Positions 5,469 to 11,298 of a DNA stretch of 64,000 nucleotides are shown one piece after another (within the stretch, counting starts at the first letter, position 1; the number at the start of each line of letters is the position of its first letter). The notes under the pieces were generated by a model. That model made no database searches. It saw nothing but the letters and a program-made list of their open reading frames with translations, and was not told where the DNA came from. The position numbers and the translations under genes are program-made. Source of the DNA: Natronomonas halophila (GTDB taxonomy: Archaea > Halobacteriota > Halobacteria > Halobacteriales > Haloarculaceae); the NCBI RefSeq assembly GCF_013391085.1, contig NZ_CP058334.1:186001-250000 (forward strand). Reading direction: 5' to 3'.

Positions 5469-5552
5469 GCGAGGGTAGCCAAGCCCGGAAACGGCGGCGG
5501 ACTCAAGATCCGCTCCTGTAGAGGTCCGAGGGTTCAAATCCCTTCCCTCGCA
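5469..5552 (+). tRNA. tRNA-Leu (anticodon CAA)
   Basis: The acceptor stem is GCGAGGG paired with CCCTCGC plus discriminator A; the 3' CCA is not encoded. The anticodon stem GCGGA/TCCGC closes a CT-CAA-GA loop, giving CAA, which reads UUG. A long variable arm and a GTTCAAAT T-loop are as expected for a class II leucine tRNA. No intron is seen. It is followed at once by a CACTG/CAGTG hairpin and a stronger one at 5568-5595. Confidence 0.96.
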
Positions 5553-7310: not shown

Positions 7311-8645
7311 ATGGACCGCGAGACGGTAGCGCCGCAGGTCGACGAAATTCCCGGACCGAAGGCCAAAGAGCGGGTCGAGTACCACGGCTCCTTCGCCGCG
7401 CCGAGCACGTACGTCTACGAGTTCGTCTGGGACAGCACCGCCCCGGCGACCGGGCCGTTCTGTACCGACGCCGACGGCAACGTCCTGATGGACTTCACGG
7501 GCCACGTCGCCGCCGCGCCGCTGGGCTACAACAACCCCGACCTGCTGGAGCGAATGGAGGAGTTCGACGTCGTCGACCCGCTCAAAATCGCCGGTCAGGA
7601 CTTCTATACGACCGCCGGCGACCCGGGCAACATCGACTACCCCGGGCCGGCCGAGTTGATGGACCGGCTGACCGACGTCTCGCCCGATTACATGGATACG
7701 GTCTTTCTCTCGAACTCCGGGGCCGAAGCCGTCGAGAACGCGCTGAAAATCTGCTATGACGACACGGCCGGCAAATACGGCATCACCTTCGAGGGCGCCT
7801 TCCACGGCCGGACGCTTGGCACCCTCTCGTTAAACCGCTCGAAGGAGGTCTACCGCCGGAAGTTCCCCGAGTTGGGCAGCATCCACGACGTGCCGTTCTG
7901 CCGAGACAACGGCTGTTCGCCGGCCACCTGTGAGTGCGGGTTCTTCGCGGGCGATACCTCGCAACTCCGCCGGATGCTCCACCCCAAGACCGGCCACGTC
8001 AACGCCGACGAGGTCGCCTATCTCATCATGGAGCCGATTCAGGGCGAAGGCGGCTATCACGTCCCCAGCGACGCCTTTCTCGAGGAGGTCGCCGACATCT
8101 GCGAGCAACACGACATCCTGCTCATCGCCGACGAGATTCAGTCCGGTATCGGCCGGACGGGCGAGTTCTGGGCCTCCGACGACTTCGCCATCGAACCGGA
8201 CGTCATCTGTGCCGCGAAGGGTGCCCGCGTCGGCGCGACCATCGCCAGCGAAGACGTCTTCCCCAGCGAGAAATCACGGCTGTCATCGACGTGGGGCGCC
8301 GGCGACATCATCGACTCGCTGCAGGGCGCGCTGACTATCGACGTCATCCGCGAGGAGAACCTTATGGACAACGCCGTCGAGCGCGGCCAGCAGGCGAAGG
8401 ACGAACTGGCGGATGCGGACTTGCCGAACGCCATCGACGTCCGGGGCAAGGGCCTGATGCTCGCAGTCGAGTTCGACACCAAGGAGCGCCGCGACGACGT
8501 CCAGGAGGCGGCGATGAAACGCGGGCTGTTGACCCTCGTCTGTGGTCACAAAACGCTCCGGTTGCTCCCGCCGCTGGACGTCCGCGAGCGCGAGATATCG
8601 ATGGGCGTTCGATTGCTCTCGGAAGCCGTCGAGGCGGCCGCATAA
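7311..8645 (+). CDS. Class III PLP-dependent aminotransferase (GabT-like)
   Basis: A 444-residue aminotransferase of the 4-aminobutyrate/acetylornithine class. It has the SNSGAEAVENALK phosphate-binding segment, FHGRT, the IADEIQSGIGRTG signature with the PLP-nitrogen aspartate, and the Schiff-base lysine in CAAKGARVG (about residue 303). It moves an amino group from an omega-amino acid to a keto acid. An insertion near residues 197-209 carries four cysteines (C-x4-C-x4-C-x-C), unusual for the class. A TATA box CAATATTAAC about 28 nt upstream makes the transcript near-leaderless. Substrate specificity (GABA, ornithine, lysine derivatives) is open. Confidence 0.9.
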   Translation: MDRETVAPQVDEIPGPKAKERVEYHGSFAAPSTYVYEFVWDSTAPATGPFCTDADGNVLMDFTGHVAAAPLGYNNPDLLERMEEFDVVDPLKIAGQDFYTTAGDPGNIDYPGPAELMDRLTDVSPDYMDTVFLSNSGAEAVENALKICYDDTAGKYGITFEGAFHGRTLGTLSLNRSKEVYRRKFPELGSIHDVPFCRDNGCSPATCECGFFAGDTSQLRRMLHPKTGHVNADEVAYLIMEPIQGEGGYHVPSDAFLEEVADICEQHDILLIADEIQSGIGRTGEFWASDDFAIEPDVICAAKGARVGATIASEDVFPSEKSRLSSTWGAGDIIDSLQGALTIDVIREENLMDNAVERGQQAKDELADADLPNAIDVRGKGLMLAVEFDTKERRDDVQEAAMKRGLLTLVCGHKTLRLLPPLDVREREISMGVRLLSEAVEAAA

Positions 8646-8687: not shown

Positions 8688-8935
8688 CTTTTTAAAGCCA
8701 GGGGGCAAATGTCCATGTAACCGAGCAACGGTCGCCCCGGACTCATGTGGGCGACCGGCAGTTGCTGACGGGAGACGGCTGGCAGGGCTTGTGTGCGTGG
8801 CAGCGGCCACGCGGGCCTTGTCGGTTCCGACCGTCGGCCCACCGACTCCGTCGGTGTCGCGTCCGTCACAGACGGCCGTGTACATGGCCGGTCGCCCACT
8901 GGTAAGTCCGCCTGCGACCCCTCGGAGGATAAACC
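8688..8935 (+). promoter_or_regulatory. RNase J promoter and long structured leader
   Basis: A strong TATA box CTTTTTAAAG (8688-8697) predicts transcription starting near 8720, leaving a leader of about 215 nt, very long for a haloarchaeon. Perfect hairpins follow one another: 9 bp at 8729-8737/8749-8757, 7 bp at 8795-8801/8806-8812, 7 bp at 8840-8846/8850-8856 and 5 bp at 8863-8867/8871-8875. A purine-rich GGAGG sits 7 nt before the ATG and could be a ribosome binding site. No reading frame in the stretch looks like a gene. Confidence 0.6.
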
Positions 8936-10276
8936 ATGGAAATCGAAATCGCAACCATTGGCGGATACGAGGAAGTCGGCCGGCAGATGACTGCCGTCCG
9001 CGCCGGCGACGACGTCGTCGTCTTCGACATGGGGCTGAACCTGTCGAAGGTCCTCATTCACGACAACGTAGAGACCGAACGAATGCACAGTCTGGACCTC
9101 ATCGACATGGGGGCCATTCCGGACGACCGCGTCATGTCCGAACTCGAAGGTGACGTGCAGGCCATCGTGCCCACGCACGGCCACCTCGACCACATCGGCG
9201 CCATCTCGAAACTTGCACACCGCTACGATGCCCCCATCGTCGCGACGCCCTTTACCATCGAACTCGTCAAACAGCAGATCGAGGGCGAAGAGAAATTCGG
9301 CGTCCAGAACGACCTCGTGAAGATGGACCCCGGCGGCACGATGTCCATCGGTGACGACTGCGAACTCGAGTTCGTCAACGTCACCCACTCCATCATCGAC
9401 GCCATCAACCCGGTCCTCCACACGCCCGAGGGCGCCGTCGTCTACGGCCTCGACAAGCGGATGGACCACAACCCGGTGCTGGGCGACCCCATCGACATGG
9501 ACCGGTTCCGCGAAATCGGTCGCGAGGGCGTGCTCGCCTACATCGAGGACTGTACCAACGCCGGCAAGAAGGGCAAGACGCCCTCCGAGTCCGTCGCCCG
9601 CGAACAACTGAAAGACGTGATGTACTCGGTGCAGGATTACGAGGGTGGCATCGTCGCCACCACGTTCTCCAGCCACATCGCGCGTGTCAAGAGCCTCGTC
9701 GAGTTCGCCGACGATATCGGCCGCCAGCCCGTTCTGCTGGGCCGCTCGATGGAGAAGTACAGTGGTACTGCCGAACGACTGGACTTCGTCGACTTCCCCG
9801 ATGACCTCGGGATGTACGGCCACCGCAAGTCGGTCGACCGCACCTTCAAGCGGATTATGGAAGAGGGCAAGGAGAACTACCTCCCCATCGTCACCGGCCA
9901 CCAGGGCGAACCCCGCGCGATGCTGACCCGGATGGCCCGCGGCGAGACGCCCTACGAACTGGACAAGGGCGACAAGGTCATCTTCAGTGCCCGTGTCATC
10001 CCCGAACCGACCAACGAGGGCCAGCGCTACCAGGCCGAGAAGCTTCTGGGTATGCAGGGCGCCCGCATCTACGACGACATCCACGTCTCCGGCCACCTGA
10101 ACACGGAAGGCCACTACGAGATGCTGCAGGCCCTCAACCCCGAGAACGTCATCCCGGCCCACCAGTCGATGGAAGGCTTCGCGCCGTACGTCGACCTCGC
10201 GCGGAACGAGGGCTACCAGCTCGGTCGTGACCTCCACGTCACGGAGAACGGCAACATCATCCAGCTGACGGAATGA
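8936..10276 (+). CDS. rnj: Archaeal ribonuclease J (5'-3' exoribonuclease)
   Basis: A 446-residue metallo-beta-lactamase/beta-CASP nuclease. The zinc motif HGHLDH is at about residues 81-86, with later metal-binding histidines in THSIIDAI and a C-terminal ...SGHLNTEGH segment, followed by the beta-CASP domain. The length matches euryarchaeal aRNase J, which lacks the C-terminal extension of bacterial RNase J. It degrades RNA from the 5' end in the cytoplasm and matters in RNA turnover and rRNA maturation. Its stop overlaps the idsA start (ATGA). Unlike most haloarchaeal genes it has a long structured leader and a recognisable Shine-Dalgarno, hinting at translational control. Confidence 0.95.
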
Positions 10277-11298
10277 CGACCACAGGACGCGTCGAGAAGG
10301 CGCTGATCGACCGCCGCGAAATCGTCAACGAGGCGATTACGGAGCAACTGCCGATTCAAAAGCCCGAGCGGCTCTACTCCGCGTCCCGCTACCTGCTGGA
10401 CGCGGGTGGCAAACGCCTGCGGCCGACCATCCTGCTGCTCGCCGCCGAATCGATTTCGGACGTCGAGCCGCTTAGCGACGATTATCGGGCGTTCCCCTCC
10501 CCGGTCAACGGTGACGTGGACGTGCTTTCGGCCGCCGTCTCCATCGAGGTCATCCAGTCGTTTACCCTGATTCACGACGACATCATGGACGACGACGACC
10601 TCCGACGTGGCGTGCCGGCGGTCCACCGCGAGTACGACCTCGAAACCGCGATTCTGGCCGGCGACACGCTCTACTCGAAGGCCTTCGAGTACATGCTCGA
10701 TACCGGCGCGCCCGCCGAAAAGAGCGTCGAGGCCCTCGACGAACTCGCGACCACCTGCACCGAAATCTGTGAGGGGCAGGCGCTGGACGTCGACTTCGAG
10801 GACCGGTCGGACGTCTCGACCGATGAATACCTCGAGATGGTCCAGTTCAAGACGGCCGTCCTCTATGCCGCGGCCGCCTCGATTCCAGCCATCCTGCTGG
10901 GCAGCGACGAGGAGACCGTCTCCGAACTCCACGGCTACGGCCTCGATATCGGCCGCGCCTTCCAGATTCAGGACGACCTTCTCGATTTGACCGTCTCCAG
11001 CGAGCAACTCGGCAAACAGCGTGGTTCCGACCTCATCGAGGGGAAACGGACCATCATCACGCTACACGCCCGCGACAACGGCGTCGACGTCGACAACCTC
11101 GTCTCCGAGGACCCGACCGAGGAGGAAATCGAGGACGCCGTCCAGACGCTCGAAGACGCCGGCAGCATCGACTTCGCCCGCGAGATGGCCCAAGACCTCG
11201 TCGAAAGCGGGAAGGACCGCCTCGAAGTCCTCCCCGAGAACGAACCCCGCGAACTGCTCGAAGACATCGCGGATTATCTGGTCGAACGCGGGTACTAA
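10273..11298 (+). CDS. idsA: Geranylgeranyl diphosphate synthase
   Basis: A 341-residue trans-prenyltransferase. The first aspartate-rich motif is DDIMDDDD (about residues 102-109), with the chain-length region [11 protein letters not shown] before it. The second motif is DDLLD (about 234-238), with the lysine and arginines for diphosphate binding in GGKRLRP. It condenses isopentenyl diphosphate with allylic diphosphates to C20, the precursor of archaeal membrane ether lipids. It overlaps rnj by 4 nt (ATGA), so the two are translationally coupled. In many haloarchaea rnj-idsA-gltX are contiguous; here a hairpin-rich spacer and an acyl-CoA synthetase gene precede gltX. Confidence 0.95.

Follow-up and report, generated by a model that had tools for sequence, protein, structure and literature searches.

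A conserved structured leader of RNase J genes in haloarchaea and its possible role in self-control

The window analysed here, a stretch of 64,000 nt from Natronomonas halophila (contig NZ_CP058334.1, positions 186,001 to 250,000), contains rnj, which encodes an RNase J family beta-CASP ribonuclease scoring 425 bits against TIGR00649 (cutoff 400) and classed as archaeal RNase J (aRNase J) by this profile. An aminotransferase gene upstream of the leader described below ends at 8645. Downstream, the gene for an idsA-type prenyl diphosphate synthase is probably under the same leader as rnj, given the 4-nt overlap of the two genes. Elsewhere in the window, a tRNA gene at 5469-5552 is the sole Rfam match. 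The promoter, ribosome-entry and coding features are as follows.

8688..8697, forward strand: TATA box (CTTTTTAAAG), read in the sequence; relatives have a TATA-like box at a similar spacing before the start of the conserved leader
8717..8720, forward strand: predicted transcription start, 24-28 nt past the TATA centre, coinciding with an abrupt onset of conservation
8924..8928, forward strand: Shine-Dalgarno-like GGAGG, read in the sequence, overlapping helix P1 (see below) and present in some relatives only
8936..10276, forward strand: rnj, archaeal RNase J, the putatively controlled gene (TIGR00649, above cutoff)
10273..11298, forward strand: idsA-type prenyl diphosphate synthase gene (NF040789), overlapping rnj by 4 nt

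A sequence-only reading of this region had reported a strong TATA box about 240 nt before rnj, four perfect hairpins and a purine-rich GGAGG, all of which are found. The TATA box lies 239-248 nt upstream of the rnj ATG (8936), and GGAGG, which is kept in a part of the relatives but not in all, stands 7 nt before it. The perfect local hairpins consist of 9 bp (8729-8737/8749-8757), 7 bp (8795-8801/8806-8812), 7 bp (8840-8846/8850-8856) and, in the fourth, only 5 bp (8863-8867/8871-8875). A perfect 13-bp long-range pair, 8747-8759/8887-8899, was absent from that reading. From the TATA spacing and the onset of conservation, we infer that the rnj mRNA starts at about 8719, with a predicted leader of about 217 nt. 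A leaderless start just before 8936 is disfavoured, since no TATA-like sequence was seen in 8896-8936. An ATG at 8745 opens a frame of 7 codons, which was rejected as a leader peptide because this ATG is not conserved in relatives.

The folding energy of 8688-8935 is -135.6 kcal/mol, against -105.9 +/- 4.8 kcal/mol for 200 dinucleotide shuffles (z -6.2), and the opposite strand gives z -3.8. The leader type of the window, designated type A, occurs in families f1 and f10 and in a part of f5; 37 type A leaders have a median folding z of -4.8, and the 200-nt stretches preceding their promoters give -0.2. Of 19 further genomes of the genus searched at the DNA level, 17 have the leader, and matches to its 5' part extend into other families. 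The good DNA matches lie upstream of rnj, while the aminotransferase of the window was not found beside the other copies. It had also been suggested that the region might be what is left of a lost or replaced upstream gene. The gene before rnj does vary, being the aminotransferase in the window and ipk or others elsewhere, but sequence and structure of the leader are conserved whichever gene precedes rnj. The suggestion is thus refuted, and a remnant or a chance occurrence can practically be dismissed.

The elements of the type A leader in the window, numbered as segments 1 to 4 and helices P1 and P3 to P5, are listed below with the evidence for each.

8719..8725, forward strand: 5'-terminal AACCGAG, including the 5' strand of P1 (8721-8725); without variation across 37 type A leaders
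8729..8737, forward strand: segment 1 (CGGTCGCCC), partner of segment 2 or segment 4; covariation of 1:2, co-evolution of 1:2 and 1:4
8749..8759, forward strand: segment 2 (GGGCGACCGGC), partner of segment 1 or segment 3; covariation, consensus fold and co-evolution
8764..8771, forward strand: 5' strand of inner helix P3 (GCTGACGG), partner 8831-8838; consensus fold, compensatory changes
8831..8838, forward strand: 3' strand of inner helix P3 (CCGTCGGC); consensus fold
8840..8856, forward strand: inner hairpin P4 (CACCGAC/GTCGGTG); compensatory changes in the genus
8859..8879, forward strand: inner hairpin P5 (with CCGTC/GACGG); consensus fold
8887..8897, forward strand: segment 3 (GCCGGTCGCCC), partner of segment 2; compensated in L008, co-evolution
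8914..8919, forward strand: segment 4 (GCGACC), partner of segment 1, beside the start codon; consensus fold, co-evolution
8921..8925, forward strand: 3' strand of P1 (CTCGG), end-to-end closure; 14/14 in the genus, minimum-energy fold of 33/33 type A leaders

Helix P1, formed by CCGAG (8721-8725) and CUCGG (8921-8925), closes the leader beside the rnj start codon. The compact and stable fold might also be expected of an independent small RNA that happens to precede rnj. However, rnj is preceded by only one TATA box, closure of the structure requires bases beside the rnj start codon, and the element is always found directly upstream of rnj, so that such an RNA is very improbable. One type A leader, in a draft genome (L017), lacks the middle part (segment 2 and P3), by deletion or assembly error.

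The consensus fold of 14 leaders of the genus comprises P1, 1:4, 2:3, P3, P4 and P5; it has 56 pairs, 10 of which show double changes. Stem 1:2 shows compensatory changes from UA to CG in 14 sequences and from CG to UA in 4; 96% of its cells are paired (slid controls, 24-54%), and 19 cells are double-changed, compared with 5.7 in shuffles (0/500). For co-evolution, each strand was matched with the partner strand of other species, and the duplex energies were compared in 42 leaders from 14 genera with 5000 permutations. The observed pairing was matched in 0 of 5000 permutations for 1:2, 0 of 5000 for 1:4 and 16 of 5000 for 2:3; kinship inflates such tests, and segment 1 and P1 are nearly invariant within the genus, the support coming from changes between genera. 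With one leader per genus, the numbers for 1:2, 1:4 and 2:3 are 0, 2 and 8 of 5000. No co-evolution is seen for the controls (1:3, 3:4 and 2:4; 4528, 3991 and 2732 of 5000), which were taken from the same sequences with the same relatedness. A pairing 3:4 can be drawn in single sequences and was rejected on its value of 3991/5000. By this comparative analysis, segments 1 and 2 of the type A leader each have two supported partners that are mutually exclusive. The sequence-only reading had also advised aligning the region with rnj upstream sequences of relatives and looking for stem covariation; in such alignments the leader is kept, and 1:2, 1:4 and 2:3 co-evolve.

In folding models, P1 is closed in the minimum-energy fold of 33/33 full-length type A leaders, while 1:2 appears in the growing-chain fold of 31/33 and in the full-length fold of one. 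The layout as modelled is that of a co-transcriptional switch, and the type A leader is likely to adopt two alternative folds. For many species the models predict a large energy gap between the states (median 11 kcal/mol, by energy rules that hold for 1 M salt), and with such a gap switching may be kinetic only. Alternatively, the leader could be a passive stabiliser, in which the end-to-end helix shields the 5' terminus of the mRNA against RNase J without any regulation. In all the type A leaders examined, P1 does lie no more than a few nt from the predicted 5' end, but a simple 5' hairpin would suffice for this purpose, and instead about 150-250 nt with covarying and mutually exclusive pairings have been kept, which makes passive protection rather unlikely.

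Upstream regions of rnj were gathered from several dozen genera. In all main families rnj has a TATA box upstream, and its leader measures roughly 115-260 nt. In the deep-branching families f9 and f11 (L143-L145), there is neither leader nor TATA box, and rnj lies shortly downstream of another gene, which we take to be fni (IPP isomerase type 2) from its translated end read by eye. These deep-branching families suggest that the leader may have arisen when rnj gained its own promoter. Covariance models of the type A hairpin (R1) and of a second leader type, type B (R2), were run on 194 genomes of the class. With R1, 41 of the 44 best matches lie directly upstream of rnj, the other three being weak (E 4e-4 or worse), and no convincing match was obtained outside the class in a phylum-wide sample. 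With R2, 74 of 75 matches are directly upstream of rnj among genomes with a known rnj position. Two weak matches (G040:C5:6381-6480 and G086:C1:202551-202649), with no RNase J gene adjoining in the stretch fetched, were taken as chance. A search of 84,980 bacterial and archaeal genomes places the 24-base core of type B at 92 sites. Of these, 90 lie 64-192 nt upstream of rnj, and the stored DNA breaks off at the other two; among the matches listed, the hosts of this core are all haloarchaeal. The structured leader noticed at the outset is thus conserved, with covarying stems, and it is hardly open to doubt that it is specific to RNase J genes.

Type B leaders are found in families f4, f6, f7, f12, f14 and f17, which include Haloferax, Natrinema and Haladaptatus. 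They differ in appearance from type A: their core is a hairpin (CCGACG-N-GCUGYAAGACGCCGGGG), UUUCARUG occurs twice, and the 5' segment (CGAAACCCGCGGGC) forms a long-range helix with GUCCGCGG-AC-GUUUCG. Their lengths differ across a mixed alignment, and they were analysed by family-wise alignment and swap tests. The long-range pairing co-evolves between families (0/2000), while within family f7 type B is too invariant to show any covariation. A proximal alternative (CCCGC with GCGGG), attractive by eye, was rejected, and the two-state claim is restricted to type A because this alternative lacks co-evolution support (212/2000). Type B is best read as a junction closed by the long-range helix. 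In an AT-rich genome (L242, G067:C3:2302400-2303300), about 200 nt have been inserted into the type B leader, separating the core hairpin from the 3' hairpin, and the two halves are retained.

A junction with invariant joining sequences and an invariant loop is reminiscent of many aptamers, and idsA overlaps rnj, so that a metabolite riboswitch for the rnj-idsA operon, with an isoprenoid or nucleotide ligand, was considered. On the other hand, no common aptamer was seen in types A, B and the third type described below, no match to the Rfam 15 covariance models was obtained for any of the three at gathering or permissive E-values, even at E 1-5, and in one species a type A leader sits on an rnj gene with type B relatives, which fits a function bound to the gene and not to a ligand. 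A riboswitch is therefore improbable.

Many of these genomes have a paralogue, rnj2, which is 75-83% identical to rnj. In the genome of the window, rnj2 lies outside the window (G000:C1:2103052-2104389, 83% identical; 2102905-2104389 with its leader, L261). A leader of about 130-175 nt, type C, precedes rnj2 in many haloarchaeal families and has the form GUAACCGAAA-N-ACGCGYYGUCC ... UUCUGGGAYYGCUCUGAUCGGA ... AUG. Its 5' element and its AUG-proximal element co-evolve (3/5000; with one leader per group, 51/5000), and neighbouring regions show no such co-evolution. The corresponding model, R3, gave 34 matches at E below 1e-6 in the 194 genomes. Every genome concerned has at least two RNase J matches, and the R3 matches adjoin rnj2 wherever its position was given.

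Leaders of types A, B and C each have their own TATA box, a 5' end of the sequence UA(A)CCGA (in type B slightly altered, for example UAGCGAAA) and a supported pairing of this 5' end with a downstream segment; beyond the 5' end and its long-range pairing, no common core was seen. In types A and C the 5' end is paired with UCGG beside the start codon; in type B its partner lies some tens of nt before the start codon. The invariant AACCGAG and the UGYAAGAC loop of type B look like recognition sites, and the leader could be bound by another RNA-binding protein, such as L7Ae, an Lsm protein or a translation factor, that controls rnj translation. However, the three types share little beyond the 5' end, all are on RNase J genes and none was found elsewhere, whereas for a general RNA-binding protein one would expect the motif to recur on other target RNAs; control by such a protein is unlikely, if worth bearing in mind. 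Self-control by RNase J is the simplest reading, because RNase J is what the hosts of all three leader types have in common, and because the leader of rnj2 differs from that of rnj but is built on a similar general plan.

RNase J enzymes attack RNA from the 5' end, preferably a free one. In the proposed mechanism, the rnj mRNA from about 8719 would begin with a cis-acting structured leader that has two alternative folds. State I would form first, during transcription: segments 1 and 2 would make a 5'-proximal hairpin, a short 5' tail would stay single-stranded, and the start-codon region would be free. After the 3' part is made, State II would form through 2:3, 1:4 and pairing of the 5' CCGAG with CUCGG beside the start codon, by which the 5' end would be buried and the ribosome-entry region partly covered. 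The open form would be both translatable and open to attack by RNase J, so that a high level of RNase J would lower its own mRNA. This scheme, a cis-acting two-state RNA for self-control of RNase J, is on balance credible; we infer which state is translated, and RNase J is taken as the sensed factor solely from the gene-specificity of the leaders. RNase J is essential in Haloferax volcanii, where it is also endonucleolytic (PMC10470531).

Some nucleases of bacteria are regulated in a comparable way. RNase E and RNase Y are described as controlling their own synthesis via their mRNAs (PMC10303841, PMC10989929). In E. coli, the mRNA of RNase E, likewise a main and essential enzyme of RNA decay, also has a long structured 5' UTR (rne), for which feedback in cis has been proposed. 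The rnj leader resembles rne-type autoregulatory leaders in being a cis element of an mRNA that encodes an RNA-decay nuclease and in having a conserved secondary structure. It differs in that RNase E is not a beta-CASP RNase J and belongs to another domain of life, with no sequence relationship claimed, and in that the rnj leader has an end-to-end helix and two putative exclusive folds, its feedback being conjectural. In Bacillus subtilis, rny has a 164-nt leader, which is trimmed from the 5' end by RNase J1, and RNase Y shortens the life of its own mRNA; unlike the rnj leader, its cleavages are spread over the leader and the early coding region, and the available part of the account describes no conserved two-state fold (PMC10303841). 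Translational riboswitches and ribosomal-protein leaders also use alternative pairings to bury or free the start-codon region, whereas the rnj leader has no known ligand and is found only on RNase J genes.

In H. volcanii 72% of mRNAs are leaderless, and from this start-site survey structured-leader control was considered not typical in haloarchaea (PMC4983044). Among the papers searched, none was found to describe an rnj leader in archaea. A class-wide leader with a covarying, probably two-state structure, present only on RNase J genes, would be a concrete counter-example to the view in that survey. If the proposed scheme is true, self-control of nucleases, for which the precedents are bacterial, would also exist in archaea and in the RNase J family, and how archaea set the level of 5'-to-3' decay would become directly testable in a genetic model.

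More tentatively, and with somewhat more doubt than belief, the three leader types might represent a general haloarchaeal device for sensing RNase J, in which a fixed 5' UA(A)CCGA and a long-range helix burying the 5' end are combined with at least three RNA bodies on two RNase J genes and can be exchanged between species. In G089 of family f7 (L239, G089:C1:2754300-2754860), rnj is preceded by a type A leader, yet the gene groups with that of its type B congener G111 (support 0.999). By eye, this leader resembles those of family f10. Judged from these sequences, the leader appears to have been replaced while the gene stayed in place, and the exchange supports modularity of the leaders.
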